This document shows positions 2,420 through 31,848 of a stretch of DNA of 64,000 bases, piece by piece. Source of the DNA: Desertivirga arenae (GTDB taxonomy: Bacteria > Bacteroidota > Bacteroidia > Sphingobacteriales > Sphingobacteriaceae); the NCBI RefSeq assembly GCF_017355785.1, contig NZ_JAFEWE010000008.1, forward strand, positions 62,001 to 126,000. Direction: 5' to 3'. The translations under genes were made by a program, and so were the position numbers. A model generated the notes under the pieces. That model had not been told where the DNA came from, made no database searches, and saw only the letters and a program-made list of their open reading frames with translations. Numbering within the stretch: position 1 is the stretch's first letter; each line of letters begins with the position of its first letter.

Positions 2420-3718
2420 ATGTTTAAATTAGCGAAAACTTTAGGAACCAGTTGCCTTATCATTCTGTCTGCTGCCAGTGCTGTGGCTCAAAAGGAAAAA
2501 TTAGCAAAAGTAGTGGCGGGGCATCCCGTAAATTATAGTGAAGATTCTGTAGGTTCTTATACTTTACCTGACGTTTTAAGGCTACAAAATGGTAGGCTGG
2601 TAAAAGATAGTAAAACCTGGCAGGAGAAAAGGAGGCCTGAACTCCTGAAGTTGTTCGAGCAGCATCAATTTGGTGTTGTCCCCGGTAAGCCTAAAGCGAT
2701 GTCTGTTCAGACCTTAGAAGATCATGGAAGAGCCTTGAATGGTATTGCTGTGAGGAAACAAACAAGGATTTATTTCAGTAATGATACTTCGAAGAATAAG
2801 ATGGATCTGTTGATCTACCTACCCGAAAAGGCAAGTCAACCTTCTCCGCTACTGTTGCTTATTAATTTCCAGCCCAACTCTATGGTAGTGGATGATCCTG
2901 CAGTTAGGAGAGGGTATTATTGGACCAAAGAGGGAAAACGTCTCCTGGCCCCGGAAGAGAGAGTCCCTTCTAAAATTAATATAGCAAGTTTCATTTCCCA
3001 GGGGATAGGAGTGGCCATGGTTTACTATGGAGATATAGAACCTGATTTCAAAGGAGGCTTAAAGTATGGCGTACGCAGCCTTTACTTGAAGCCGGGGCAG
3101 ACGACTGTAAAAGACTCTGAATGGGGAACTATATCAGCCTGGTCTTGGGGTTTAAGTCGTGCAATGGATTACTTTGAGACGGATAAAGATATAGATGCAA
3201 AGCGTGTTGCTCTTCAAGGTACATCGCGACTAGGGAAGACAGTATTGTGGACAGGAGCCAGGGATGAAAGGTTTAAACTTGTAATTGCAAGTTGTTCTGG
3301 CGAGGGAGGAGCAGCATTAAGTCGCCGAAATTACGGTGAAGGAGTCGAACACATGACTGACACTTCAAGATACTACTATCAATTTGCTCCTAAACGTCAC
3401 AGTTATACGGGCAGGATAAATGAATCTCCTGTTGATGCTCATATGCTTGTTGCGCTCATGGCTCCGCGCCCCCTGTTGTTGCAGACAGGTGATACAGATT
3501 ACTGGTCAGATCCCAAGGGTGAGTTTCTTGCAGCAAAGGCTGCCCAGCCTGTCTATCAGTTATTTGGAAAAAAAGGACCTGCAGGGGAAGAGTTCCCCGC
3601 TGCAAGCGATACATCTTTAATGTTTAATCCCCTGGGGTACTATATGCATGCTGGTGGTCATGGTCCTATACCCGCAGATTGGCCCCTATATCTTCAGTAT
3701 CTTAAAAAATTTCTATAG
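2420..3718 (+). CDS. Secreted CE15-like glucuronoyl esterase
   Basis: The 432-aa product begins with a signal peptide (MFKLAKTLGT...SAVAQ). I chose the ATG at 2420 over the GTG at 2396 because it starts directly at that signal. The alpha/beta-hydrolase core carries the nucleophile elbow G-T-S-R-L-G-K with Ser269, matching the GxSRxGK pattern of carbohydrate esterase family 15. A late MAPRPLLLQTGDTDYWSDP segment should hold acid and substrate contacts, and GGHGP places the catalytic His at 414. CE15 enzymes cleave the ester between 4-O-methyl-glucuronic acid of xylan and lignin alcohols. Secretion to the periplasm or surface is expected. No other xylan gene is adjacent. Confidence 0.85.
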   Translation: MFKLAKTLGTSCLIILSAASAVAQKEKLAKVVAGHPVNYSEDSVGSYTLPDVLRLQNGRLVKDSKTWQEKRRPELLKLFEQHQFGVVPGKPKAMSVQTLEDHGRALNGIAVRKQTRIYFSNDTSKNKMDLLIYLPEKASQPSPLLLLINFQPNSMVVDDPAVRRGYYWTKEGKRLLAPEERVPSKINIASFISQGIGVAMVYYGDIEPDFKGGLKYGVRSLYLKPGQTTVKDSEWGTISAWSWGLSRAMDYFETDKDIDAKRVALQGTSRLGKTVLWTGARDERFKLVIASCSGEGGAALSRRNYGEGVEHMTDTSRYYYQFAPKRHSYTGRINESPVDAHMLVALMAPRPLLLQTGDTDYWSDPKGEFLAAKAAQPVYQLFGKKGPAGEEFPAASDTSLMFNPLGYYMHAGGHGPIPADWPLYLQYLKKFL

Positions 3719-3799
3719 TAACAAAAGAAAGGAAGGTTGCGGAAGCAATCGGGTAGAATAATAGAAGTCTGCGAAACAAAAAAATGCATAATCATATTT

Positions 3800-3815
3800 C
3801 TTATGTGCACATAAG
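3800..3815. promoter_or_regulatory. 16-bp perfect palindrome
   Basis: CTTATGTGCACATAAG is a perfect 16-bp inverted repeat without a spacer, 66 nt upstream of the TerB-like gene. Its symmetry and position fit a dimeric repressor site. It has no T tract and is too short to act as a terminator. The binding protein is unknown. Confidence 0.4.
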
Positions 3816-3881
3816 GGAATTAGAGTATTAATCTTAATTCCGCTAATCAGGTATTGCTGATAAAGCACAAAATAAGGAACT

Positions 3882-4274
3882 ATGCAAAACAACTTATCAA
3901 TAGAGGAGGTGTTTAATACACCACAAAAGAAATTGGCGTTCTTTCAGAACCTCATACTTGTAGCAGCAGCAGACAAAGTGCTGGACAATGGCGAGGGTAC
4001 TTTACTACTATTAATTGGAGACAAACTTGGTCTTACCCCCGCAGATCTCATGCCTCTCGTAGACAATCTTTCGGTCCTAAGTTTTATAATTCCTGAGGAT
4101 GGATTGCAAAAGACGTTGGAGCTACAAACTTTAGTTCAAATGACAATGGAGGATGGGGAACTGCATGATCGTGAATATACCTTATGTTTAGAGTACGCAG
4201 AACGTATCGGCTATGGTAAATCGGTATTGGATGACATGATTAAACAATTCTCGACAGGACCGATTCAGGATTAA
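3882..4274 (+). CDS. TerB-like (DjlA N-terminal-like) helical protein
   Basis: The 130-aa product is almost entirely helical and shows the repeating pattern of TerB/DjlA-N domains: LVAAADKVLDNGEGTLLLLIGDKLGL in the first half and LVQMTMEDGELHDREYTLCLEYAERIGY in the second. In each, an acidic cluster (AADxxLDxGE, TMEDGELHDRE) follows a hydrophobic helix, which in the family can bind metal. Members are linked to tellurite resistance and membrane stress, but isolated TerB domains occur without other ter genes, as here. No signal peptide is present, so the protein is probably cytoplasmic. The 16-bp palindrome upstream may regulate it. Confidence 0.65.
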   Translation: MQNNLSIEEVFNTPQKKLAFFQNLILVAAADKVLDNGEGTLLLLIGDKLGLTPADLMPLVDNLSVLSFIIPEDGLQKTLELQTLVQMTMEDGELHDREYTLCLEYAERIGYGKSVLDDMIKQFSTGPIQD

Positions 4275-4289
4275 TCAATAAGCTGACAT

Positions 4290-4404
4290 ACCGGGAGGTG
4301 AAAGATATTTTATCTTTAACGAAACTTAACATGGACATCATCGTAATAACCTAAACAGCAGTGTTATTGCCAATGCCATCATTCTGCTTGTCTCATCTCC
4401 CGGT
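4290..4404. repeat. Long-range inverted repeat flanking an intergenic segment
   Basis: ACCGGGAGGTGA (4290-4301) is matched by its reverse complement TCATCTCCCGGT (4393-4404) with a single mismatch, enclosing about 90 nt. The arms sit between the TerB-like and RsbQ-like genes. This could be a structured leader or a relic of a small mobile element. No target-site duplication is obvious. Confidence 0.45.
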
Positions 4405-4430
4405 GTTAGCTAAGAACCCTGATTATAAAT

Positions 4431-5255
4431 ATGACTTTACAAGCGACAAGCAGCTCGAAATCTTCTATAACAAAAAACAATGTAAGTGTTCGGGGTAACC
4501 TGGCAAGTATAAAAACCTTGGTATTTGGCCACGGCTTTGGTACTAATCAAAAGGTCTGGAATTTCGTTAGAGCTGCTTTCGAACAAGATTATCGAATTGT
4601 TCTTTATGATAATATAGGCGCAAGTCACTCTGACCTGTCTTTTTATGAGCCTGAAAGATATAGAGATTTGAACGGGTATAAGCAGGACTTGCTGGATATT
4701 TGTGAGGATTTACAACTTACAAATATCACCTTTGTCGGACATTCCGTTAGTGGGATCATAGGGCTGCTTGCATCTGTTGATCGTCCCGATCTCTTTTCGA
4801 GCCTAATTCTCATTGGTTCTTCAGCCCGTTATCTTAATGAGGAAGGATATACAGGAGGTTTTGAACAAGCTGATTTGAATACTATTTACAGCGATATCGT
4901 ATTCAATTATGAGCAATGGGCAAAGGGCTTTTCAACGATGGTGATGAGGAATGATGATCGTCCGATTTTTGCTGAAGGCTTTATGTCGGGCCTCTTGTCT
5001 TTACGGCCTGATATTGCTCTCTCTCTGATTAAGACTATTTTTCAGTCCGACTTTCGTTCTGTTCTACCACTTGTGCAACATCCCACGCTCATTATTCAGT
5101 CCGAAAAGGATTTAGCCGTTCCACAGGAAGCTGCCGAGCATTTGCATCGCTCTATCCCAAATAGTAAAATAGAATATGTAGCAGCTGAAGGACACTTTCC
5201 CCATATTACCGCTCCTGATGCAATTGTAGGTGCTATTGAGAGGTTCTTAAAATAG
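4431..5255 (+). CDS. RsbQ/KAI2-like alpha/beta hydrolase
   Basis: The 274-aa cytosolic hydrolase shows the RsbQ/D14/KAI2 subfamily pattern: oxyanion loop FGHGFGTNQKVWN, DNIGASHSDLSFY strand, nucleophile elbow G-H-S-V-S-G with Ser105, a late acid in QSEKDLAVP, and the catalytic His in EGHFPH. In Bacillus subtilis RsbQ acts with the PAS-phosphatase RsbP to activate the stress sigma factor, probably by hydrolysing a small hydrophobic ligand. No rsbP-like gene is next to it, so this is an orphan RsbQ and its partner and ligand cannot be named. Family assignment is strong. Confidence 0.85.
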   Translation: MTLQATSSSKSSITKNNVSVRGNLASIKTLVFGHGFGTNQKVWNFVRAAFEQDYRIVLYDNIGASHSDLSFYEPERYRDLNGYKQDLLDICEDLQLTNITFVGHSVSGIIGLLASVDRPDLFSSLILIGSSARYLNEEGYTGGFEQADLNTIYSDIVFNYEQWAKGFSTMVMRNDDRPIFAEGFMSGLLSLRPDIALSLIKTIFQSDFRSVLPLVQHPTLIIQSEKDLAVPQEAAEHLHRSIPNSKIEYVAAEGHFPHITAPDAIVGAIERFLK

Positions 5256-5285
5256 TAAGGGAAGGAAAATACAGAACAGTCCTTA

Positions 5286-5906
5286 TTAATTTTTTGTTGC
5301 AGAAAGAGTTGTTGTATTTTCTGAATGTGGAGCTGAAGCTGCCAGGTAACGAGCGTTATACAGTTGAGTTATACTCACCAAACCATTTTGCTCGTATTCT
5401 TTGTTCATCCAGGCGTTATAGAGTTCTTTGTCGTCCTTTATCATTTCGGCCAGACACTTATTGACATCGCGAGGAGCGATCTCGGTCATTTTACCATCCT
5501 CATTAATAGTAAAAAAATGTGGAACTGGGGAATGATCATACGGGTGAGCACTATAAAAGGAATAAAGGTTTATTTTTCCTTCAGCCCACACCCTATAGAA
5601 GTGTTCATTGTCTCCTTTAATGCTTTTAAATTCTGAAGGACTATTCGTTAAACCAGTAATAGTGAATGATTTAATTTCATTAGGACTGAACTTTTGATTC
5701 TCTCCATTAGGTAATTCAATCCGTAGATTTCTTGTAACAGATAGGGGATTCAGTTCCTGTTTTTTCAACAAGGCCGAGCTGATTTTAATTTTACATTTAA
5801 CGGTGTCACCAGTCTTACTTACGTAATATCCTTCATATTTATTGTTAGCGAACCCGGCAGAGACACCTATAAAAAGGGTGAAAATAGACAACAGCACTCG
5901 TTTCAT
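5286..5906 (-). CDS. Secreted hypothetical protein (Bacteroidota-type, distant paralogue at 40.7 kb)
   Basis: A clear signal peptide (MKRVLLSIFT...GFANN) precedes about 185 residues with the opening pattern Y-x-G-Y-Y-x-x-x-x-G-D-T-V, followed by alternating strands, an aromatic RVWAEGKINLYSFYS segment and a helical C-terminus. The same layout (signal peptide, Y-Y-x-x-x-G-x-x-V-x-G/C-x-I opening, FY-x-x-x-x strand, YLAA-like end) appears in the minus-strand protein at 40713-41357, so they may be distant paralogues. No catalytic motif is visible and function is unknown. It is probably periplasmic. Confidence 0.7.
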   Translation of the reverse strand: MKRVLLSIFTLFIGVSAGFANNKYEGYYVSKTGDTVKCKIKISSALLKKQELNPLSVTRNLRIELPNGENQKFSPNEIKSFTITGLTNSPSEFKSIKGDNEHFYRVWAEGKINLYSFYSAHPYDHSPVPHFFTINEDGKMTEIAPRDVNKCLAEMIKDDKELYNAWMNKEYEQNGLVSITQLYNARYLAASAPHSENTTTLSATKN

Positions 5907-6159
5907 TCTTCAAAATTAAATTGGTGGTAAAAACCGATACCTGGATCTTAAATAATTCTGATCAAGGTTCGCTTTTATTATGCTAATACTGTGCCAATGG
6001 AGATAAAATTTTAGGCTGCTGTAAAAGGAGCTGAGAATTGATATGGAGAATGTTAGGTGTAGGGATTCGGGTAATTTTCGTCCCAATTATACAACAGAGA
6101 TTGAGGCCTTTTGTAGAAAGCTAAACAAATAGATAGGAGGATAGACAGGGGAAAAAATT

Positions 6160-6194
6160 AAAGGAGTACTTTGGATGGCCAAGGAGACTCCTTT
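6160..6194 (-). terminator. Intrinsic terminator of the GH28 gene
   Basis: The inverted repeat AAAGGAGT (6160-6167) with ACTCCTTT (6187-6194), with an inner TGG/CCA pair, lies just after the GH28 stop. Read on the minus strand it is followed by a T-rich run (AATTTTTTCCCC). The 250 bases beyond, up to the secreted hypothetical gene, hold only a chance 29-codon frame. Confidence 0.7.
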
Positions 6195-6205
6195 AATGAT
6201 TGATG

Positions 6206-7564
6206 TTATTTAACGTGTGAGGGCTCTTTCACTTCTTTGCCGATGATCACGTCATTAAATACTATATTTTCTGTGTTGCGTAGGCTTAAACCCGTAGAAG
6301 CAGAATCAATCGTTACATTGGAAAAATAAATGTCTTTTACTTTTTTACTCGGGTATCCCTGGATAACTACTCCTGCATTTGTTGCTTTTCTGCATTTTAC
6401 ATTATCTACAAAAACATTCCTGATATCAGTTTCGAAGCCCTTTCCTTCTCCATGGTAAAACGATGTTATAAAGAAACAGTCTTCTACCTCCCCAAATTCG
6501 AGATTATTAACGTAAATGTCACGAATGAAACCGCCCCGGTCTGGGTTCGATTTCAAATAGATACCCCGTTTGCAATATCCCGATGCTTTACAATTTTCTA
6601 CAAATACGTTTTGTACTCCTGCAGACATCTCACTACCTATGACTACACCATGTAGTCCCTTGAAACGACAATTACGGATAATGATGTTTTCTGAGCTAAT
6701 ACCTGTCCTTCTGCCTTCGTAATCGCGGCCGGCTTTGATGGCTACATTGTCGTCTCCATTGTTAAAGTCAATGTCTTCTATCAAAATATTTTTAGAGTAC
6801 TCGGGGTCGAACCCGTCATTGTTCTTATTGAAAGCTTCAAATTTTACTTTTCTTGCTGTTATATTTTCTGACTTGAGCAAATGCACACACCAGAAAGGAG
6901 AGTTTCTAATAGTAATGCCTTCAATCAGGATATTCTTACATTCAAAAAATTGGATTAGCTGTGGACGCAGGAAGTGGCCTTTGCCAAACATCCTTTGATT
7001 TAAAGCCGTATTATCCTTATTCATTTTGCGCGTTAAAAGCTGACTTTCGCCTTGCTTCTCCGACCATTTGCTGAAAGAGTCGCGTGAATTTCCGTCAATC
7101 TCTCCTTCGCCTATTATGGCTACATTCTCTAATTGGTAGGCATAAATAAAGGGACTGTAGTTGTAAACGAATGTACCCTCCCAACTGGTTAGCACAGCTG
7201 GTAAGTAATCTTCCGGATTTGTGCCGAAAATCAGTTTGGCTCCCTTTTGTAACTCAATGCAAAGATTGCTGGTCATGTGGATAGGGCCATTGATAAGGTA
7301 TGTGCCCGGGGGAACAAGGATCTTACCACCCTTTTTCGCTCTGATTACTTTTATGGCCTTGTCGAATGCGGGTTTACAATCCGTTTTGGAATCTCCTACT
7401 GCTCCGAACTTCGTTATCGTAAATACATTTTTAGAGATCTTAGGAGGAATAATATTTTTCAGGATCTGGTCCCGTTTTTCGTTTGCAGAGGGTTCTGTGG
7501 AAACGGAACTAGTCCAGGAGATGCAATTGATTGAAATAATCAGAAGAATAAAAAGCTTTTTCAT
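6206..7564 (-). CDS. Secreted GH28 polygalacturonase-like glycoside hydrolase
   Basis: The 452-aa product has a signal peptide, a pectate-lyase-3-type N-terminus (FGAVGDSKTDCKPAFDKAI, residues 54-71) and a right-handed beta-helix. The GH28 catalytic signatures are all present in order: N-N-D-G-F-D (catalytic Asp250), G-D-D-N (Asp271/Asp272), H-G-V-V-I-G-S-E (His305) and R-G-I-Y-L-K (Arg333-Lys338). The family hydrolyses alpha-1,4-galacturonic or rhamnogalacturonan linkages of pectin. The RG-I-x-x-K variant is common in exo-acting bacterial members, but endo or exo action cannot be decided here. No SusC/SusD pair is nearby. A terminator follows. Confidence 0.92.
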   Translation of the reverse strand: MKKLFILLIISINCISWTSSVSTEPSANEKRDQILKNIIPPKISKNVFTITKFGAVGDSKTDCKPAFDKAIKVIRAKKGGKILVPPGTYLINGPIHMTSNLCIELQKGAKLIFGTNPEDYLPAVLTSWEGTFVYNYSPFIYAYQLENVAIIGEGEIDGNSRDSFSKWSEKQGESQLLTRKMNKDNTALNQRMFGKGHFLRPQLIQFFECKNILIEGITIRNSPFWCVHLLKSENITARKVKFEAFNKNNDGFDPEYSKNILIEDIDFNNGDDNVAIKAGRDYEGRRTGISSENIIIRNCRFKGLHGVVIGSEMSAGVQNVFVENCKASGYCKRGIYLKSNPDRGGFIRDIYVNNLEFGEVEDCFFITSFYHGEGKGFETDIRNVFVDNVKCRKATNAGVVIQGYPSKKVKDIYFSNVTIDSASTGLSLRNTENIVFNDVIIGKEVKEPSHVK

Positions 7565-21176: not shown

Positions 21177-21755
21177 ATGAAAGAAGAAAGAGAAATTGTT
21201 CTAAGTACTAAGTATGCAAATCCTGCACCCCTTGGCTTGTTCGCCTTTGGTATGACTACTATTCTACTGAATCTCCATAATGCGGGTTTTTTTGAGCTCG
21301 ATTCTATGATCATTGCCATGGGTATTTTTTACGGAGGTTTGGCCCAGGTAATAGCAGGTATAATTGAAAGTAAGAAAAATAACACCTTCGGTTTAACCGC
21401 TTTCACTTCTTATGGCTTCTTCTGGCTTTCATTTGCTGGATTACTCATTTTACCAAAACTTGGTTTAGCCACTGCTGTATCTGAAACCGGACTAGTTGCA
21501 TACCTGGTAATGTGGGGAATATTCACTTTACTATTATTTGTAGGCACCCTAAAGCTGAACCGGGCATTACAACTGGTTTTTGGAACGCTAACTGTACTTT
21601 TTTTCCTGTTAGCAATAGGAGATGCTACTGGAAATGCATCAATAAAAACCTTTGCAGGATATGAGGGGATTATTTGTGGTGGCCTCGCAATATATGCAGG
21701 GATTGCACAAGTTCTGAATGAACTTCATGGAAAAACCGTTTTACCTATAGGATAG
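21177..21755 (+). CDS. satP: Acetate uptake transporter (SatP/YaaH, GPR1/FUN34 family)
   Basis: The 192-aa product carries the family signature N-P-A-P-L-G-L-F near residue 15 and six hydrophobic helices (starting at about residues 17, 43, 74, 104, 128 and 158). These channels or proton symporters take up acetate and succinate across the inner membrane. Its length matches Escherichia coli SatP (188 aa). It stands alone with its own terminator. A near-consensus -7 box (TAATTTTT) ends 4 nt before the ATG, suggesting a very short leader. Confidence 0.9.
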
Positions 21756-21831: not shown

Positions 21832-24117
21832 CTAAGACTTTACATAGGATCGAAAGTAGCCGCATTCTTTCAAAATCTCCTGATAATATCTGGTATTCAA
21901 AAACTTCTGTTTCAACTCCGCAAAATACTTACCTCCTGGAAAATAAGAGAAGTCATCATTATAGGATTTACTTTCAACCTGGTTATAATATTCATTGCGC
22001 TCACATTTACTAGCCATAAAAGTGCTTCGCGCCCGTTGTTCATCCGTTTGAGCATATTGCTTTGCCAACAGGTAATACTTCATTGCAATTTTGGGGTCTG
22101 TAAAGGTCCGTTGGAATTCTTTTGTTATAGCCTCTCCACTATAATCACTGTATCCGGTAATATCTGTTTGATAGAACAATCTTGCATTTCCATAGTAAGT
22201 GATGTTATAGTAGGCGTTGGCAAGTAGAAAAGAATTTCTAAATGTATTTTTCCCAGCGTTCAACTCATCTTTAGCTGCTTTTATCGCTTTCAAGAAGCTG
22301 AGGGGAGTATACTTTAATTTTTGAGGAGCTTCGTGATCGCAATCATGACAGTCGTTCAGCCGGCTATTAAACGGGTTTCCTGCTAATTCAAATTGGTTTC
22401 CTTTTTCCCCGGCCTTTTCCATCAATACTATCGCTTCATCAACTTTTTCCTTATAGGTTAGCATGGTTGCCTGGTGATAGTATAGGTCTTCCAGCTTATG
22501 AGGATAATACCTCAACATCACCTTTTGAAATTCAGTCTTGTTTTTATTAAGGAAAATAGCTTGCAGTGCGTTAATGTTCGAGTTGCTCATATAGAAGGAG
22601 GTTTCGTCTTGAAAACAAACGGCTTTCACCGGATCCTTCTGCGATTTGTATAAGTTAGCAATTGAACGGGCGACCGGGTACAAAGCATCTGTATACCTAA
22701 AATCTTTAAACTGCTTCTTCTGATCCCTAATATCGGCTAACCAATTTAAAGGTTCTACCAGTGCATCTTCTGTCGTCTTATCTAGTTTTTTTAGTTGCGC
22801 CACATGCAACAGCGTTTTCAGGAGTTTGTATTGCGCATTGATCAATGTGTCTTTAGATGGGATCGTCCGTTCAGCACGGTCGTAGAAAATGCCTGCATTT
22901 TTATAATCTTTCTTAAGAAAATGAAGGTATCCCGAGGCCAGGTTCCAAAACCACGGCTTGCTGGTAGTTCCTGTACGTGTTATAGAATCAATACTTGTCA
23001 GGTCTTTATCTGCTGTTGCCTTATTCATGAATTCCGATGCATACAAGCTATCCATCTGGTCGTACTCCGTAATATTTACTACGCGACTTAAAAGAACATC
23101 AAGTTTTTCTGATTTCGGATTCCTTATTGTGATTTCTTTAATTGCTCTGACAGGATCATGCTCCATCCCCAGAAGGTGCCAAAGGGTGATTTCTTCCTCT
23201 TTGCTTTTTGCTAATGCTAGTGTTTGTTTCCAATCCTGCTCCTCCTGTGGATGAAAACTCCAGGCTGAAGGGATCTTCATTTTGAAAGAGTAATCATAGC
23301 ATAAACTATATAAATAGTTAGCGGAAGCATATTTTTTCTGGTGATAGTAATAGCCTGCCAAATAGGAGAGTGAGCGATAGTAGAGAGCGTTTCTTTGAGA
23401 GTTCTTATAGCTGTTGAAGGCTGCATCAATTGCAGGGTTATTCTTTTCAGTAGTAAGGCTATTGAAAAAGTGATAACGAACCAGCTGGAACCAATAACGT
23501 TGTTTAAGGAAAGGTTCCTTTGTGTTTTGAAATGCAGCTTTTATTTTTATCTCCAAACTGGGGTCAACGTTTTTTTTAGGAACTGGCTCATACCAGTAAT
23601 CCTCCTCGTTCACGGCATAAGCTTCAGCCTGTTTTGCAAGTTTCAAGTATTCAAAAAACTGATCAACTTTTTTCTTTTTGTATTTGGAGCCTGAAAGATC
23701 TGGATATATACCTGGAAGACTACCAGTTTTTCCTAGTCGATTTTGGTTCACAGAATCAACCCCTGCTGCAGATAGTTTAAAAAGTAAAGTTTCAAGATCA
23801 GGCGTTTTGATAGAATTATTTAGAAATCCTGACCAGTCGCTGGTAGTCTCCTCATTAAATCTTTTATTGTTGTCTGCCGCGTTATTTTCATAAAGTCTTT
23901 CTGAATTGTAAAATCGATGGGAAGTTTCAAAGAAGAAGGGACTATAGTCAGGATCAACAAAGTATTCAGGAGCAAATACAGAAGGGTCTTCTTCGTCTCC
24001 ACCAGCACATGCCCATGCTATACCAGCAGCAATAAGCATGGTAGCACTAAAACTTAGAAGATATTTGCTTAAGCGTTTCTGCCTTAAACTGAAAATGGTC
24101 GAGGTTACCGAGTTCAT
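21832..24117 (-). CDS. Large TPR-like lipoprotein, second gene of an overlapping pair
   Basis: I take the ATG at 24117 because the segment LSKYLLSFSATMLIAAGIAWAC then forms a lipoprotein signal with Cys followed by AGGDEED. The mature protein, about 720 residues, is helical with repeated TPR-like pairs (for example ALYYRSLSYLAGYYYHQKKYASANYLYSL and ASGYLHFLKKDYKNAGIFYDRAE). It is rich in Tyr and Trp, and contains a late Cys cluster C-H-D-C-D-H. The start overlaps the end of the upstream gene by 71 nt, indicating translational coupling. I know no function for the family. It is probably a periplasmic or outer-membrane scaffold. Confidence 0.72.
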   Translation of the reverse strand: MNSVTSTIFSLRQKRLSKYLLSFSATMLIAAGIAWACAGGDEEDPSVFAPEYFVDPDYSPFFFETSHRFYNSERLYENNAADNNKRFNEETTSDWSGFLNNSIKTPDLETLLFKLSAAGVDSVNQNRLGKTGSLPGIYPDLSGSKYKKKKVDQFFEYLKLAKQAEAYAVNEEDYWYEPVPKKNVDPSLEIKIKAAFQNTKEPFLKQRYWFQLVRYHFFNSLTTEKNNPAIDAAFNSYKNSQRNALYYRSLSYLAGYYYHQKKYASANYLYSLCYDYSFKMKIPSAWSFHPQEEQDWKQTLALAKSKEEEITLWHLLGMEHDPVRAIKEITIRNPKSEKLDVLLSRVVNITEYDQMDSLYASEFMNKATADKDLTSIDSITRTGTTSKPWFWNLASGYLHFLKKDYKNAGIFYDRAERTIPSKDTLINAQYKLLKTLLHVAQLKKLDKTTEDALVEPLNWLADIRDQKKQFKDFRYTDALYPVARSIANLYKSQKDPVKAVCFQDETSFYMSNSNINALQAIFLNKNKTEFQKVMLRYYPHKLEDLYYHQATMLTYKEKVDEAIVLMEKAGEKGNQFELAGNPFNSRLNDCHDCDHEAPQKLKYTPLSFLKAIKAAKDELNAGKNTFRNSFLLANAYYNITYYGNARLFYQTDITGYSDYSGEAITKEFQRTFTDPKIAMKYYLLAKQYAQTDEQRARSTFMASKCERNEYYNQVESKSYNDDFSYFPGGKYFAELKQKFLNTRYYQEILKECGYFRSYVKS

Positions 24118-25072
24118 AAAATAGTATTGTTCGTTTGTTATTTTTTGGAAGAGCTGTTGAAAGTTGTTCTGTAGCTTGTTGCAAAACTTCTGTATTGATC
24201 TCTTCAAGTTTAAAAATATCGTTTTCTTTTATATAGATACCCTTGAAAAAAAACGAGCGTTTTGCAATCATGTAATTAGGATAGGATTTAAATGCTCCGG
24301 AATTTAAAAGATCTGCAGTGCTTAACTTGTTAAACAAGCCTTTAATTTTACTATCCCGGATTTGAATGGTCCATGAAAAAAGGGGTAATGCAATGTCGAG
24401 CTGCAAGGGATAGTTGCTTATATATGAGGTGTACTTCGAGGCGTCAACCTCATTATATATGGAATTTCGCGCATCCAAACGTCCGGTAAGTTTTCCCATA
24501 TTGTAGTACATCAATACTCCGGTTTCTACTGGTGGCACTCCAGTTCTATCTTTATATTTTACCTGATGTAGCCGGATAGTTGCTTCCAGAGGTTTCCCGC
24601 TGATCTTTCTTAATATTTTTAGGTACCTGAAATATTTTTCTTTGGTGCTTTCAGTCCAGTCGCAGTCAATTTGAATAGATTGGTAAGCGATATTGTGGTT
24701 AGACATTATATTACCCAAAAGCCGAAAGGTATTAACAGCAAGGGAATCAATGCCCTTTTGGTCTGAATTAACAAGAGTTTTATTGGTAATATAAACTACC
24801 GGGACAATTGTTTGATCCTTGAGTTCCTGTTTGAACTTTATTACTCCTGCCGGTAAGGCTGAGCCTTTGGCCTCATCCCATCTGATATCAAATAGACGGA
24901 GGTAAATCTTCTTAACGAATAGATTCTTTAGGAGTAAACGATCCTCCGCCGGCAGGTTGAACGTTGTCTTCCAGTAGTAAAAAGCGGGTTCTGTTTTTGA
25001 TTCTCTCCGGCATGCTCCTAAAGAAAGAAGAAGGATAAAGCAACAAAATATTTTAAAGAATATTTGTTTCAT
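24047..25072 (-). CDS. Lipoprotein with probable TIM-barrel fold, first gene of the pair
   Basis: The 341-aa product has a lipobox LLSLGAC followed by RRESKTEP. After that come barrel-like strand-helix repeats: FYYWKTTF, KKIYLRLFDIRWD, TIVPVVYITNKTL, YQSIQIDCDWTES, LEATIRLHQVKYKD, GVLMYYNMGKL, LDIALPLFSW. The QIDCDWT strand resembles the glycoside-hydrolase-like D-x-D-W pattern and LPLFSW a late barrel strand, so a glycoside-hydrolase-like barrel is plausible, but I cannot assign a catalytic pair. The gene overlaps the TPR-like lipoprotein gene by 71 nt, so the two probably act together. Confidence 0.7.
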   Translation of the reverse strand: MKQIFFKIFCCFILLLSLGACRRESKTEPAFYYWKTTFNLPAEDRLLLKNLFVKKIYLRLFDIRWDEAKGSALPAGVIKFKQELKDQTIVPVVYITNKTLVNSDQKGIDSLAVNTFRLLGNIMSNHNIAYQSIQIDCDWTESTKEKYFRYLKILRKISGKPLEATIRLHQVKYKDRTGVPPVETGVLMYYNMGKLTGRLDARNSIYNEVDASKYTSYISNYPLQLDIALPLFSWTIQIRDSKIKGLFNKLSTADLLNSGAFKSYPNYMIAKRSFFFKGIYIKENDIFKLEEINTEVLQQATEQLSTALPKNNKRTILFYELGNLDHFQFKAETLKQISSKF

Positions 25073-25215
25073 AGATGCATTTCTGCTGCTTTTAAAGAGG
25101 CGAATTTAGGAAAATGGCCTCGAATCATTCCCTTCTTTCTCCGATTAATTTTTTTAACTCTGTTACGTTGCTTTTTGATTATACGTAAATCTTGTATAAA
25201 TCTTACTGGTACGTT

Positions 25216-25839
25216 ATGAAAATTAAATTATTAGGTCTGACTTTATTCACTTTGTTAATTGCGGTTTCCTGTAAAAAGAAAGATAACTCTGAACCTGAAA
25301 AAGAAGCTCAATTAGAAAAAGTAACCATTGGCGGAAAAGCCTATGAAATAGTAAAAATAGGTGACCAACATTGGATAAACACAAACTATTCAGGAGAGGG
25401 AGGAATATGGAATGATGCAACTACAAGTAAACCAGAGTACGGCAAGTTTTATACTTACGAGGAGGTTCAGCAATTCACTCTGCCGGCAGGCTGGAGAGTA
25501 CCTACCGAAGCCGACTATCGCAAACTACTTACAACGATAGGAGTAAGTTTTGTTGGAGCACAGATTCAGAATGCAGAAAAGTTAAAGGCTTTGACATCCA
25601 AAACCAACTGGAATAACATTTCTGGCACCAACACCTCCGGTTTTAATGCGTATCCTGGAGGTTATAGTATCGATAACGCTTACCCAATAGGAGGGGCTAA
25701 TGCCGAGTTCTGGACTTCAAGTGATAGAACCTTTTCTATTATGGAAAGCGGAAATAATACCACATACAATGTTAGCTTTTATGGAAAAACAAATCAACCT
25801 GATCGTTTCAATGTTCGCTTCGTGAAGGATGCGCAATAG
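25216..25839 (+). CDS. FISUMP-domain lipoprotein
   Basis: The signal peptide (MKIKLLGLTLFTLLIAVSC, start at the ATG 25216 rather than the TTG-like 25192) leads to a lipidated Cys followed by KKKDNSEPE. The mature domain shows the Fibrobacter succinogenes major paralogous domain pattern: VKIGDQHWINTNY, YGKFYTYEEV, LPAGWRVPTEADYRKLL, SGFNAYPGGY, FWTSSDR, and NVRFVKD at the end. The domain is frequent in surface proteins of this phylum, with carbohydrate-related or adhesin-like functions suspected but not shown. A terminator follows. Confidence 0.88.
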   Translation: MKIKLLGLTLFTLLIAVSCKKKDNSEPEKEAQLEKVTIGGKAYEIVKIGDQHWINTNYSGEGGIWNDATTSKPEYGKFYTYEEVQQFTLPAGWRVPTEADYRKLLTTIGVSFVGAQIQNAEKLKALTSKTNWNNISGTNTSGFNAYPGGYSIDNAYPIGGANAEFWTSSDRTFSIMESGNNTTYNVSFYGKTNQPDRFNVRFVKDAQ

Positions 25840-25933: not shown

Positions 25934-26015
25934 TTTAAACCGGGATCCTCACGAACTTTTATTTACCTGAGTTTTTAGCTACAGTTTGCTTTACTTTGCA
26001 GGTAAAATTTTTCAA

Positions 26016-27389
26016 ATGCTTAAATGGTTTTCTATTGTTCTTTTACTTGTAGCTTTTTATGGTAATTGCTTTTCTGCAGCCGGAAAATGGGCAAGTAAAA
26101 CGACCGGGACTGAGATTAGTTTTAGAGCGACCGATGCGAAGGCCCCGGTTAAGGACTTCAACGGCAAATATGCAACCATTGTCTACCTCGAAAATCTCAA
26201 CGTTAAAAAGCTAGGAAAGAACAGTAATAAAAAAGACGTGAAATGGTTGCTTTCACAAGGCTACCGTGTGATAGAGTTGGATTATAAAAAACACGCTGGC
26301 TCTGTTTCTCCCCAGATCAACAACGACATTATCGCAATTAATGATTCGATAGCTTCAGGGTCTTTTTGCGGCTTCAAAGATTGCTCCACTTCTAAAACTT
26401 ACGTCCTGTTTGAAGGTTATCGGATTCTTCGTAACGTATCTTATTTTAAAGATAATCCTTCTGTTTATAACACACCCACTGGATATCTTGAAGGAGACAG
26501 TTTACATTTGGATATCATCTATCCAGCAAATTCAAGAAAGAAAGTCCCTTTGGTCCTATCTTTTTCCTACAGTAACAGTTATGCAACTTTCGACCCTGTA
26601 AAAAAGGTCACGACGGATGCGGGAAGAGATCAACGAGTTTTTTTAAGCTATTCCTTTGCTGGTTTCAATGATAGTTTTCTTGAAGGGGCGCCTGCAAACG
26701 GTATTGCCTGGGCGATCGCTGATCATCCAAAATATTGCGAATGGGGAAAAGGAAAACCGCTAAACGGACCTAATGACGCCTATAAATCATTTCAAACCAA
26801 CCCTGATGCAGCCCAGAAAGTTAAATCGGCTATTAGAACGGTAAGAGCGATGGGAGGGAAATTGAATCTTTCAGGCAAGATAGGAATTTATGGTTTCTCA
26901 AGGGGATCAACAGCGGGTTCTCTAGCTATAGGAGATAAACATGTTCCCGAATTCGAAAATGCTGGCCCAAACCAGGACGTATCAGATGAAGTTCAGGCAG
27001 CAGCCTTAGGTCCTGGTGTTTTCGACTATACTCAAATATACAACGTAAAAGGTGATGGTGATGGAAATTTAGAGTCCCGTTGCCCTTTAGTTTGGGGGCC
27101 TATGGAAAAGAATTACGACTTATGGCAATCCATGGGAGCTGCAGGACTTGTCGAATCTCAGGCAACAGCGCCTGTTCTTTTCTTTTATAATACGGACGAC
27201 GAAGCATATTATCAGGATCAGATTTCGCATTTCCAAACAAAACTTAAGTCACTTGGTGTGCCTGTTTCAACCTTAATGAACTATGGAAAGGGGCATGCTG
27301 TTCCGCAAACGGCAGGGCCATTGAATCAACTGTATGATTTTTTCAAGCAGTATCTCCATCCTCCAAAGGTCCACAAGAACGGTAGATAA
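26016..27389 (+). CDS. Secreted alpha/beta hydrolase
   Basis: A signal peptide (MLKWFSIVLLLVAFYGNCFSA) starts at the ATG at 26016; the TTG at 25986 is unlikely. The mature part contains an N-terminal strand pair with GYRVIELDYKKH, an oxyanion-type segment LHLDIIYPANSRKKVPLVLSFSY, the nucleophile elbow G-F-S-R-G-S, a late acid in FFYNTDDEAYY, and the catalytic His in KGHAVP. The overall plan resembles the PHB-depolymerase/dienelactone-hydrolase-like esterases often found near polysaccharide genes. The substrate is unknown; an acetyl or feruloyl esterase role is possible. Confidence 0.75.
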   Translation: MLKWFSIVLLLVAFYGNCFSAAGKWASKTTGTEISFRATDAKAPVKDFNGKYATIVYLENLNVKKLGKNSNKKDVKWLLSQGYRVIELDYKKHAGSVSPQINNDIIAINDSIASGSFCGFKDCSTSKTYVLFEGYRILRNVSYFKDNPSVYNTPTGYLEGDSLHLDIIYPANSRKKVPLVLSFSYSNSYATFDPVKKVTTDAGRDQRVFLSYSFAGFNDSFLEGAPANGIAWAIADHPKYCEWGKGKPLNGPNDAYKSFQTNPDAAQKVKSAIRTVRAMGGKLNLSGKIGIYGFSRGSTAGSLAIGDKHVPEFENAGPNQDVSDEVQAAALGPGVFDYTQIYNVKGDGDGNLESRCPLVWGPMEKNYDLWQSMGAAGLVESQATAPVLFFYNTDDEAYYQDQISHFQTKLKSLGVPVSTLMNYGKGHAVPQTAGPLNQLYDFFKQYLHPPKVHKNGR

Positions 27390-27753: not shown

Positions 27754-30700
27754 CTAATTTATAACAATAGCCTTTGAACTGCTGAATTTATTTAATGAGG
27801 TTTTGACGTAATAAACGCCCGCTGGTAAATTGCTCAATTCAATTTCCTTTTCGAATAAACCAATTTTGTTCCCACTTAAAGACTGGATAATTGAACCTCC
27901 GGAATTGATGATCGTAATAGAGACTTTGCCATCTTCTGGGGAGTTTAAACTCACCTTGAATCTTCCCCGTGATGGATTAGGGTAAATCGTTAAATCATCA
28001 TTTAATGTAAAGGTTAAGGGCGAATCTGCATTCCATGCTGAAATTTCACTTCCTCTATCACCCGCATGTCCATTTTGAACACGAACTTCATTACTTACTG
28101 AAGAAAGATTTCCGGCCGCATCTAATGCCTTCACAGTGAAATTATAAACGTTATTTCCAATTGGCCTCTCTGCATTAAAGCGAGTAATGGTTAGCAAATC
28201 AGCATTCAATTGTATTCCATTCCTGTATATATTATAACCAATAACTCCAAGATTATCAGTCGATACTTGCCAGTTCAATTGAACCTGGTGTTTAGTTGTC
28301 TTTTCGAAAACAAGAGCGGAAGGAGCCGTTGGTGCTTGTGTATCGGGCGTTGTAATGGTAACCGATGCTTTTTCAGATTCGTTAGCTGCAGCATCAAAAG
28401 CAGATACATCGAAAGTATAGGACTTGGATGCATGCAATCCAGAAGCCTGGTAGCTAGTTCCCTCTCCCGTATAAACTTTGATTCCGTTTTGATAAATATG
28501 ATAACCTTTTACGCCAATAAAGTCGGTTGACGGTGCCCAGCTTAAGGTAGCAGATGAATCTGTCGCGGATGTAGAGGAAATAACAGGTAATGAAGGTGCG
28601 ATAGAATCTCTTACAACGATAAGTATTTGTCTTGCTGAGGTATCTGCGAAGGTCTCATTTCCTTGTTGCCATGCTGTTATGATCGTAGATCCTGGCCCCA
28701 TCAGGTGAACTGCAGCACCCTGAATTATGGCAACTGTAGTATCTGAACTAAAATAGCGAACAGGCAATCCGGAACTTGCAGTAGCCGTGAGGTTAAAATC
28801 AGGTTCACCATAAACCTTTTGAGGCAAAGCAGCAAAGTTAACCGTTTGTGTTTTTCTGTTAACTGTAAGCATCCTCGTAATTGCTGGGGCAGGACTATAA
28901 ATATCATTACCTCCTTGTCCTGCTTTAATATGGGTATAACCAACCTTCAAAATATGCACTTTTCCATTACTTACCGTAGCAACAGTGGTGTCTGAACTTG
29001 AATATTCAATCGGAAGTCCGGCACTTGAGGTGGCATTTAAAGCAAAGTCCTCATCTCCGATCTCTTTCGCCGGCAGTTCTGCAAAAGTAATTGTTTGATA
29101 GTTTCTCGCTGTCGCAAGTCCTTTTATCTCCATATCCGACAGAACTTTATTGTACATCCTTACCTCATCAAGCATACCCTTGTATGGTGCAGGTTTATTA
29201 GTTGTGGTTAAGAATTCAAGTTCACCAATGTTACCTAGTATCAGGGCACTCGCTTCTCCAATTCCTGAATTAGATCTGGAGATAGTACTAGTTGCATATA
29301 AAGCGCCATTCATGTAAATGCGCAGACGCTTATTTTCCACATCCCTTATAGCCACAACATGTACCCACTTGTCTGAAAAGAATGGTGCTCCATTTGCCTG
29401 AAGCTCGTCTTTACCACCGCCTCCTGCGTCATTGTCATCATCCAGAGCGAAGCGGATCTGTTTGTTTTTAAATTCAATATCAAACCGTTTCCCGGTAGCG
29501 CCGGTACTTGCATTTCTGCTAATAGAGCCTTTGCAAAGCAAATACGAACTTGTGTTGTTATCAGGAGGCAGGAGAGAAGGCTTAGCTTTCATCCAGAAGG
29601 CAAGAGAGAAAGAATTCTTATCAAAATGGTTCTGATCTTCATTGGGGATTCTTACTACGTACATATCGGTAGCGGCGGAACTGAAGTCAAGAGCTCCCTT
29701 AAGTTTCCCTGTTATGCGAATACTTTCTTTTTCAGGATCAAGGCCGAGTAAACCGTCATTCTGATAGGAGGATGAATCAACTACACTGGTTTCGTCGGCC
29801 GATACTTCGTCAAAAGCATAATGACCAACAAGTCCTGCCGGAAGTACCGGAGGAGTTCTGAAAGACCATAGCTGTCCCTTAACTGTGCCCTTGGCATTTG
29901 TTGCATCAACCCTCCAAAAATAAGTAGTATTATCTGCTACTGAAGCGATAAAAGATGGACTGGCGGAGTAAGCAAGCTCAGATTGCAGAGCCAATCCAGC
30001 TGTGTCAGTTCCGAGATATAGGGTGTACTTCAACGTATTGCTGCTTCCGCTCCATTTTAATGTTAGCTTATTCCCTGATGGAGTAGCGTACTGATTTCCA
30101 TTAGTTGGAACAGGGTTGGTAGGAGTTACAGGGGCAGATGCTATAGTGGGCGTTAAAACGGACACTGGGTTACTATAGGCTGAAGATTCCGTTCCTGAAA
30201 CTGACTTGATCCTGTAGTAATAGGTTTTATTAGGAGAAAGGCCCGTGCTGTCAATATAAGAGGTCGAATTTGCCGCTGGCTGAGCAATATTAGCATAAGT
30301 AACACCGTCGGCTGAACGCTCAATGATAAAGTGGTTTTCATCTGTTGAGTTATCGTTCCATTTTATGAGGACAGAGCTGGTGGGAGCAGGGCTTTCCTGA
30401 GAAGTGGCTGCAAGCGTAACATTCGATGGCGGCCTTACGAAATCAGGAGGAGGGGTATCTGTTAGAGAATTTATATAAATTTCGATGTTCAAATACTGCG
30501 GATCGGCAGCGCTGAAGGCAACGGCATCTGCCTTGTTATTTTTATCGAGTCCGTGTTGATCCTCCCAGACGTCTGGTATTCCATCTTTGTCAGTATCTAA
30601 AGGACTTGGCGCTCCGTATACATCTCCCAGTCCACCGTTAGAAAAAGGAAGATCTTTCTCCGTATACACATAAAGGCCTTTGGTACCTCTTGAATTTACT

Positions 30701-31848
30701 TCGTCAACCAACAACGCGTCTACCTGATCCCTGCGGGGATAGCTGGCTCCAACATGATTTATGATATACTCATAAGCTTGAGCTGCCGACATCGAAGGTG
30801 CTGCATTAGGATAATTGAAGGGCTGTGCCTTAAAAGCCTCTCCAGTAATACCAGGGTAACCTACCGAATCGAAAGGAACCTCGCTTCCATCCAAAACTCC
30901 ATTTTTATTGTTATCAAAATAATTTCCGGCGCCATAGATATTAAAGGTCCCCGTTCCCCTTGAGAACGGAGTGGTTTTGGATGGAGGCGTTAACGGGCCT
31001 CCCACGAAATAGTTATTGATGACGTTTACTTCTGATACGCCTGAAGAGCCTCCCATAATATATGCGTCTCCTTGCCACCCATAATTAAGGTTATCGCCTA
31101 AGCGGTTACCATTTCCCCAGTCGTACACCACATTGTTAACAAATTCATTCACTCCCTTTACTTTGGGATTTCTGGTTTTGTTGCTGATATAAAGGTTTTG
31201 GACAAGGCTTACCCTGCCACCATCAGGAGTTTGAATTAGGCCACCTGCAGAATGGTTTTCCCGGTGGAGACCTTGGCCAATGATAGAGTTTTGTACTGTG
31301 ATGTTGTCTGGAGAAGTTCCCTTGCTATCCCAATTAATAGAAAATACTTCATCCATTCCCCAGGTAAATGACATGTGATCAAAGAGCATATTTGCTCCGT
31401 TTGCCAGACCAGAAGCATCTTTTCCTGAATTGGATGTAGCACCTAAGCGAATGCGAAGGTACCGGCAGATGACATCGTTGGCACCTGTGAACGTTATGCG
31501 TTTATTGAAAAAGACTATCCCATCTCCGGGGGCGGTCTGGCCTGCAATAGTGGTATTGGCAGATACTACAACATCAGAAAGCAGATTGACAATACCGCCT
31601 ACTGCAAACACCACTACACGGCCAGGTTTGCTTACAGCATCTCTGAACGACCCTGTTCCGCTGTCATTAAGATTGGTAACGATGTAAACCTCCCTGCTGG
31701 CTGCGGCTCTGGCTCCTTTGGCAAATCGACCAAATCCGAGAGCTCCTGGAAACGCAGGGGTTTGTGCTACAGCATGCTGAATAGTTCCCAGCGCAAATGC
31801 TGCTACTACTGCACATTTTTTAAAAAAACTGGACGTAGAAATTTCCAT
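27754..31848 (-). CDS. 1364-aa T9SS-exported pectate-lyase-like multidomain protein
   Basis: Domains in order: signal peptide (1-28); a PL1-like right-handed beta-helix (about 30-430) with FPGALGFGRFAKGAR, DSGTGSFRDAV and the strand segments FDHMSFTWGMDE and VNEFVNNVVYDWGNG; a Ca-binding-type DTDKDGIPDVWED segment (about 425-440); fibronectin-III-like modules (about 475-665); a LamG/concanavalin-like module (about 675-900, HYAFDE...FSLAFWMKA); two Ig-like repeats with SSDTTVA motifs (about 905-1080); two further FN3 modules; and a C-terminal type IX sorting domain (about 1290-1364, LTIYPNPSRGRF...PAGVYYVK). It is predicted to be surface-attached and to cleave pectin or a similar polyuronate. 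Confidence 0.88.
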   Translation of the reverse strand: MEISTSSFFKKCAVVAAFALGTIQHAVAQTPAFPGALGFGRFAKGARAAASREVYIVTNLNDSGTGSFRDAVSKPGRVVVFAVGGIVNLLSDVVVSANTTIAGQTAPGDGIVFFNKRITFTGANDVICRYLRIRLGATSNSGKDASGLANGANMLFDHMSFTWGMDEVFSINWDSKGTSPDNITVQNSIIGQGLHRENHSAGGLIQTPDGGRVSLVQNLYISNKTRNPKVKGVNEFVNNVVYDWGNGNRLGDNLNYGWQGDAYIMGGSSGVSEVNVINNYFVGGPLTPPSKTTPFSRGTGTFNIYGAGNYFDNNKNGVLDGSEVPFDSVGYPGITGEAFKAQPFNYPNAAPSMSAAQAYEYIINHVGASYPRRDQVDALLVDEVNSRGTKGLYVYTEKDLPFSNGGLGDVYGAPSPLDTDKDGIPDVWEDQHGLDKNNKADAVAFSAADPQYLNIEIYINSLTDTPPPDFVRPPSNVTLAATSQESPAPTSSVLIKWNDNSTDENHFIIERSADGVTYANIAQPAANSTSYIDSTGLSPNKTYYYRIKSVSGTESSAYSNPVSVLTPTIASAPVTPTNPVPTNGNQYATPSGNKLTLKWSGSSNTLKYTLYLGTDTAGLALQSELAYSASPSFIASVADNTTYFWRVDATNAKGTVKGQLWSFRTPPVLPAGLVGHYAFDEVSADETSVVDSSSYQNDGLLGLDPEKESIRITGKLKGALDFSSAATDMYVVRIPNEDQNHFDKNSFSLAFWMKAKPSLLPPDNNTSSYLLCKGSISRNASTGATGKRFDIEFKNKQIRFALDDDNDAGGGGKDELQANGAPFFSDKWVHVVAIRDVENKRLRIYMNGALYATSTISRSNSGIGEASALILGNIGELEFLTTTNKPAPYKGMLDEVRMYNKVLSDMEIKGLATARNYQTITFAELPAKEIGDEDFALNATSSAGLPIEYSSSDTTVATVSNGKVHILKVGYTHIKAGQGGNDIYSPAPAITRMLTVNRKTQTVNFAALPQKVYGEPDFNLTATASSGLPVRYFSSDTTVAIIQGAAVHLMGPGSTIITAWQQGNETFADTSARQILIVVRDSIAPSLPVISSTSATDSSATLSWAPSTDFIGVKGYHIYQNGIKVYTGEGTSYQASGLHASKSYTFDVSAFDAAANESEKASVTITTPDTQAPTAPSALVFEKTTKHQVQLNWQVSTDNLGVIGYNIYRNGIQLNADLLTITRFNAERPIGNNVYNFTVKALDAAGNLSSVSNEVRVQNGHAGDRGSEISAWNADSPLTFTLNDDLTIYPNPSRGRFKVSLNSPEDGKVSITIINSGGSIIQSLSGNKIGLFEKEIELSNLPAGVYYVKTSLNKFSSSKAIVIN

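Follow-up and report, generated by a model that had tools for sequence, protein, structure and literature searches.

In this study we show that two overlapping genes of Desertivirga arenae belong to a conserved two-gene module of Bacteroidota. They lie in a stretch of 64,000 nucleotides that was analysed as a whole (the window; assembly GCF_017355785.1, contig NZ_JAFEWE010000008.1, positions 62,001 to 126,000), and we call them gene A and gene B. A encodes a predicted lipoprotein with a barrel of the glycoside hydrolase family 18 (GH18) fold, and B an exported protein that is predicted to form a helical solenoid like those of tetratricopeptide repeat (TPR) proteins. By analogy with known proteins it might be possible, with a chance that we place close to but below even, that A and B form a two-protein module of the cell envelope that handles glycan, with A as its GH18-fold barrel and B as a TPR guide or activator. 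The main rival is a role of A in binding only.

The conservation of the pair was assessed in several samples. In one scan of species genomes 125 relatives of A were identified; the best 80 loci were retained, and together with the window they make up 81 regions. In profile searches B stands directly downstream of A in 76 of the 80 loci, and because B follows A so regularly the overlap of the two genes is not due to chance. At the other four loci the contig ends 214 bases past A (L046) or other genes take the place of B (L054, L065 and L092). With the alignments of both proteins as queries against 295 genomes of the class, A was found in 60, B in 63 and both in 57 (Fisher p ~5e-50, a statistic that ignores phylogeny). 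Six genomes have B without A, five of them with weak or broken matches and one (G256) with a B truncated at the end of its contig. The tight coupling that the original prediction had read from this one sequence is thus borne out among homologues; a lack of joint conservation, which would have spoken against it, was looked for and did not occur.

The exceptions bear on a different explanation, namely that B binds neither glycan nor A, that the genes are merely co-transcribed and that A is a stand-alone glycan-binding lipoprotein. Apart from L054, L065 and L092, it can draw on three of the 60 genomes with A that gave no B match (G056, G107 and G281, in the last of which A is a contig-end piece). 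In the same scan B follows A at 57 of 68 places; the other eleven comprise two contig-end pieces (in G112 and G281), one split match (G190), one decayed pair (contig C4 of G108), four genomes with A and B on separate contigs (G040, G237, G139 and G199; the contig ends were not checked), of which G040 and G237 also speak for this explanation, and three places without adjacent B (contig C67 of G108, G107 and G056). Nevertheless, co-transcription alone would not be expected to maintain a coupling so tight across orders (76 of 80 loci), two B matches lie elsewhere in the genome of L054, and in G108 a decayed A lies beside decayed pieces of B. We therefore regard mere co-transcription as very improbable.

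By record titles, further carriers of the pair are Flavobacterium, Pedobacter, Dysgonomonas and rumen Bacteroidales. In a phylum-wide sample A was present in 47 of 395 genomes, six of them outside the class, and some genomes of the class and phylum scans carry two A genes. Within its own genus the pair occurs in the genome of the window and not in the two others searched. Single sequences used as queries on 41 genomes found A in six, including its own genome, and B in four.

The 71-nt overlap, which had been claimed together with its coordinates, was confirmed and is the longest among the pairs measured. For the other pairs we took as the start of B the closest ATG that lies 17 or more codons upstream of the cysteine ending its signal sequence; this rule placed the start in 66 pairs, the window excluded. 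More than 4 nt are shared in 44 of these; another 11 touch, with anything from a 4-nt overlap to a 10-nt gap, and in the remaining 11 the genes are further apart. All 44 overlaps have a length of 2 modulo 3, that is, the same relative frame, and the commonest length is 41 nt. An alternative in-frame TTG start of window B lies 90 nt upstream of the ATG at 24117. The trees of A and B, built from 64 pairs of the proteins, have a patristic r of 0.93 and 31 of 61 splits in common, to which shared species history must contribute.

A number of single loci deviate from the usual arrangement. In G108 (C4, 34325-37171) an A with many stops adjoins pieces of B with stops, both genes decaying together, and the second A of this genome, on C67, is intact and has no adjacent B. 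The A without B in G107 (L133, 3346-4395) keeps D-C-D-W and has by eye lost M-x-Y and the R of R-L-H-Q, so that partner loss and loss of conserved residues may go together. G068 (C43, 8829-13368) carries two tandem B genes without an adjacent A match and an A-B pair elsewhere in the genome. The pair at L052 stands under the record title 'uncultured proteobacterium', the sole genome with A among 56 of its class, and reflects transfer or a mis-binned contig; its A has no lipobox cysteine at the aligned place. At L074 and L078 the frame of A is open into the upstream frame, with no stop between, and this upstream frame resembles DNA topoisomerase III. In L132 (2925-5549, G262) the barrel of A is fused behind a polytopic membrane stretch of ~540 residues and B follows as usual; a simple hydropathy count gives nine transmembrane-like segments, some overlapping, and the stretch had no meaningful match to Pfam, NCBIfam or PDB sequences. 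L095 (Capnocytophaga gingivalis) reads A and B as a single frame of 1094 aa. We did not accept it as evidence of fusion, as the junction is close to a homopolymer run in a draft contig, and two frames are present in a relative (L070); it is merely counted among the 76.

For the protein analyses, sequences that were partial, broken, fused or without partner were omitted from the 81, which left 75 rows in the first alignment of A (6 omitted) and 68 in that of B (13 omitted). Keeping only sequences with less than 80% mutual identity gave alignments A1 for A (59 of 75 rows) and A2 for B (54 of 68 rows). The AlphaFold2 model of A, built with the 59-row alignment, is one barrel of ~320 residues with a mean predicted local distance difference test (pLDDT) score of 94.4. 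Foldseek returned 44 matches at E<=0.001, mostly chitinases or other GH18-fold proteins, with the spore cortex-lytic enzyme SleL as the best (E 1.1e-11), and VIA-align superposed A on 4s3k over 276 residues (Z 19.4, root-mean-square deviation (rmsd) 3.8). By this high-confidence prediction A is a (beta/alpha)8 barrel of GH18 type.

On the sequence level the likeness is much fainter. Using hhalign, A aligned with eight GH18 proteins from relatives over 100 columns with probability 11.7 and E 0.0025, and with a wider set of 14 GH18 proteins in the same register with probability 3.1 and E 0.015. In this register IDCDWT of A falls on the GH18 D-x-D-W-E, LMYYN on M-x-Y-D and ALPLFSW on GLPFYG. The GH18 motif DxxDxDxE, which ends in the catalytic Glu, is not found in A, where T140 stands on the Glu. 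No Pfam family matched window A at E<=1, so that the cut-off of GH18 (PF00704) was not reached, and PDB sequences gave two matches over short stretches (E 0.045 and 0.066). A weak match to the uncharacterised Pfam family DUF3142 (PF11340) was seen in 7 of 59 A members at E<=10, the best with E 0.0056 and 17.2 bits, below the curated cut-off of 30. Twenty of the 59 members were scanned singly, and the five matches seen with coordinates are colinear and span or lie inside the D-x-D region. DUF3142 proteins were found in 0/60, 0/58 and 0/14 (controls) of the genomes searched, and in the open-licence part of PubMed Central (PMC) a single paper mentions the family, with one entry in a table. We tried the A of L052, the strongest DUF3142 match seen, against plasmids by tblastn, and rejected the single match (E 4) as chance. 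DUF3142 is a lead and not a family assignment.

The residues of A show a peculiar pattern. Where GH18 proteins carry the catalytic Glu, 50 of the 59 rows have Thr and the other 9 have Ser, and the counterparts of D-x-D and M-x-Y are invariant (see the table), as are Y32, W34, N97, T165, R167, P180, Y214 and P230. We assume that Y32, W34, N97, Q134, D136, D138, W139, T165, R167 and Y190 line one pocket. By this conservation the site is strongly constrained even though the classic proton donor is gone. Hence the description of A as a TIM-barrel glycan enzyme holds for the barrel, which prediction and fold search agree on; the enzyme is possible, in a barrel without the GH18 Glu.

The same pattern can be read in another way. 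A GH18 fold without the catalytic Glu is usually a binding protein, and A might be a catalytically dead lectin of this fold that senses or binds glycan, with B as a scaffold that holds A or relays a signal. The uniform Thr or Ser at the Glu position fits such a role, and the pseudo-chitinase YKL-39 (4ay1) is among the structural matches of A (Z 17.8). However, the catalytic-site Asp and Tyr are kept in all 59 rows, more than we would expect a mere binder to need. Furthermore, according to a study on PgaB (PMC5933820), a barrel without the Glu can be active. We therefore consider a purely binding A unlikely.

The model of B (54 rows) is all helical with a mean pLDDT of 89.2. The Pfam model TPR_2 matched 11 of 54 B relatives (best E 4.4e-06) and window B below its cut-off (12.1 of 27.5 bits). 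According to the model, B is a TPR-like solenoid of helical hairpins. The aromatic content of window B is 15.3% F/W/Y (12.5% in A), which agrees with the earlier view of an aromatic-rich helical repeat protein. Foldseek found no match for B at E<=0.001, the best VIA score (Z 10.9) lies inside the range that the tool states for unrelated repeats, and the B profile had no match among PDB sequences at E<=1. A likeness to SprE (8gl8_I) was rejected, since its Foldseek E of 0.053 is no better than that of many unrelated repeats.

Window B does contain the C-H-D-C-D-H cluster pointed out before, but this is not a general feature, as both its cysteines occur in 35 of 54 relatives. DCHDCDH is a variant of a CxxC motif and is found in this exact form in 10 of 54 rows. 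The two cysteines are gained and lost as a pair; either one occurs singly in 0 and 1 rows. The invariant cysteines of B are two others, Cys37 after the signal sequence and Cys752 near the C-terminus. Because both are invariant and the mature B of L096 has just these two cysteines, a disulphide between them is suggested, which may close B on itself. Mildly against it, residues 1-3 of the B model have a pLDDT below 50.

Both proteins had been called lipoproteins, which is plausible for A and doubtful for B. We applied strict and relaxed lipobox motifs. For A 43 of 72 sequences with the cysteine have the relaxed and 17 of 72 the strict motif, and in none of the 72 is any of the six residues preceding the cysteine charged; its lipobox is therefore plausible and A is a predicted lipoprotein. 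For B the strict motif was found in 6 and the relaxed in 11 of 68 rows, and 24 of 68 carry a charge in those six positions. After the cysteine, at positions +2 to +8, at least two D/E occur in 37 of 54 B rows and K/R in none; for A at least two D/E are found in 10 of 59 and K/R in 53 of 59. This acidic stretch of B is somewhat like the surface-lipoprotein export signal of Bacteroidota, but displaced, as that signal occupies positions closer to the cysteine (PMC5080379).

Features of the pair in the window.
Feature	Position	Strand	Remarks
Gene A, predicted lipoprotein with GH18-fold barrel	24047-25072	-	341 aa, ATG start
Gene B, exported TPR-like helical solenoid (predicted)	21832-24117	-	761 aa from ATG at 24117
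Overlap of A 3' end and B 5' end	24047-24117	-	71 nt
A signal peptide to Cys21 (SLGA-C)	25010-25072	-	Cys in 72/75 rows
A residues 134-140 QIDCDWT, GH18 D-x-D region	24653-24673	-	Q134, D136, C137, D138, W139 in 59/59
A residues 188-190 M-Y-Y, GH18 M-x-Y(D) counterpart	24503-24511	-	M188, Y190 in 59/59
B signal sequence to Cys37 (AWA-C, non-canonical lipobox)	24007-24117	-	Cys in 68/68 rows
B D-C-H-D-C-D-H cluster, Cys590 and Cys593	22333-22353	-	both Cys in 35/54 rows, phi 0.96
B C-terminal Cys752	21862-21864	-	54/54 rows of A2; 1.00 of 68 rows of first alignment

The closest mechanism that we found is that of PgaB and PgaA. PgaB has D474 on the GH18 Asp and no equivalent of the Glu, and it hydrolyses de-N-acetylated poly-N-acetylglucosamine, dPNAG (PMC5933820). 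The TPR region of PgaA is reported to bind PgaB, to stimulate both its deacetylase and its hydrolase activity and to be able to bind the polymer as well (PMC9384988). A shares with the C-terminal domain of PgaB (GH153) a GH18-like barrel with an Asp (D138 of A, in 59/59) and no equivalent of the Glu; Foldseek also lists PgaB 6au1 for A (E 2.9e-04). Likewise, the partner of PgaB is an outer-membrane TPR protein and B is TPR-like. In contrast to PgaB, A is one barrel and lacks the N-terminal deacetylase domain, and in contrast to PgaA, the all-helical B has no predicted beta-barrel pore. No synthase or porin gene recurs at the loci as in the pga operon, and because none of the 295 genomes had a match above the curated cut-off of the model for the synthase PgaC (1 of 14 did in a control set), the relation is an analogy of parts, not one of locus or membership. 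Weaker PgaC-model matches occur in 294 of the 295 genomes and do not separate one family-2 synthase from another. Following this analogy, A, anchored in the membrane, would bind a polymer, perhaps one with amino sugars, and would probably cleave or trim it through Asp138 and Tyr190 without the usual Glu, as PgaB does with its single catalytic Asp. B, exported as a TPR superhelix, would bind A, the polymer or both, and would guide or activate the reaction, a role played for PgaB by the TPR part of PgaA. Direct contact of A and B, the glycan ligand, catalysis and the location in the envelope are all points that we infer.

Other known proteins resemble single parts of the pair. From the GH18 chitinases, notably SleL, whose fold A shares over nearly its whole length with D-x-D and M-x-Y kept, A differs by its Thr or Ser in place of the Glu and by the lack of a Pfam match. 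AlgK, PelB and BcsC are TPR proteins of synthase-dependent exopolysaccharide systems, and LbcA is a TPR lipoprotein that works with the protease CtpA. The pair can be likened to them as an outer-membrane TPR scaffold plus an enzyme acting on polymer or envelope, although the fold match of B is generic and, as said above, no PDB sequence matched it. LbcA raises the question whether the pair might be a module of envelope biogenesis or quality control, with B as adaptor and A as effector on envelope proteins or peptidoglycan and not on an exported polysaccharide. CtpA-LbcA is among the best structural rows of B (8sxf_C, Z 10.1, rmsd 18.6 over 398), and the best match of A acts on spore cortex. 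However, this Z value again lies inside the range of unrelated repeat proteins, we know of no recognised protease features in A, and the patchy occurrence of the pair, with A in 60 of the 295 genomes, speaks against a core housekeeping role. Such a function seems to us quite improbable.

The surroundings of the genes gave no further partner. In the window the neighbours are a convergent gene for a GPR1/FUN34/YaaH-type transporter (21177-21755) and a divergent one for a Fib_succ_major protein (25192-25839), and because of these orientations A and B form a two-gene unit. Clustering of 949 open reading frames of at least 90 aa from the 80 loci and the window (flanks of up to 8 kb, shorter at contig ends) showed that, besides A and B, the commonest family among the 30 largest clusters inspected occurs in 12 of 81 regions; the larger neighbour families sit in loci of similar taxonomy. 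No synthase, deacetylase or porin gene recurs beside the pair in this clustering. Searches with Pfam, NCBIfam and PADLOC gave nothing above cut-off for either window protein, and members scanned as alignments gave weak, scattered NCBIfam matches. The statement of the original prediction that no known system matches stands therefore, and neither protein fell into a characterised family of Pfam or NCBIfam. A link to type IX secretion was dropped, as the SprA marker is present in 284 of 295 genomes and too common to be informative. Plasmids gave no match for A and none for B. A mobile origin via phage was rejected as well, since the single match in the phage collection falls on a faecal contig of 6.75 kb that is unannotated, marked 'unverified' and resembles bacterial chromosome. 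This record (L131, MT837997.1, filed as 'Bacteriophage sp.') carries the pair at 3226-6263 with B in two frames; the adjoining gene is, we assume, DNA-polymerase-like, and the contig is probably bacterial. Further along the window are a BD-FAE-type esterase (25986-27389) and a protein of 1364 aa with matches to Laminin_G_3, fn3, RGI_lyase and Por_Secre_tail (27754-31848), and for neither was a connection to A or B found.

Several of these results weigh against a glycan-handling module. The loss of the Glu in A may equally mean that catalysis was lost, and the sequence link of A to GH18 (both hhalign comparisons) is weak. B has no specific structural match by Foldseek or VIA. No glycan gene is consistently near the pair, PgaC is missing above cut-off from all 295 genomes, A exists without adjacent B (L054, L065, L092; G107, G056), and the agreement of the A and B trees may reflect species history. 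It is conceivable, if somewhat unlikely, that the pair is even the minimal core of an undescribed glycan machine of Bacteroidota. In this case A would found a new family of GH18-fold glycoside hydrolases that work without the Glu, through Asp138 and Tyr190, B would be a dedicated TPR activator and polymer guide, maybe closed by Cys37-Cys752, and the pair would be inherited as a unit.

In conclusion, both parts have folds of known kinds. In the literature that we found there is no description of their combination, of its conservation or of the uniform Thr or Ser in place of the Glu. A search of titles and abstract starts in open-licence PMC returned no paper on the pair, which is a weak absence. 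The pair represents a two-gene unit present in about one in five of the genomes sampled from the class, and its window proteins have no Pfam or NCBIfam match above cut-off. If it indeed acts on glycan, it would be a second, independently organised case of a TPR protein steering a GH18-fold barrel without the Glu, and it might serve as a small, genetically tractable system for how such barrels handle sugar.

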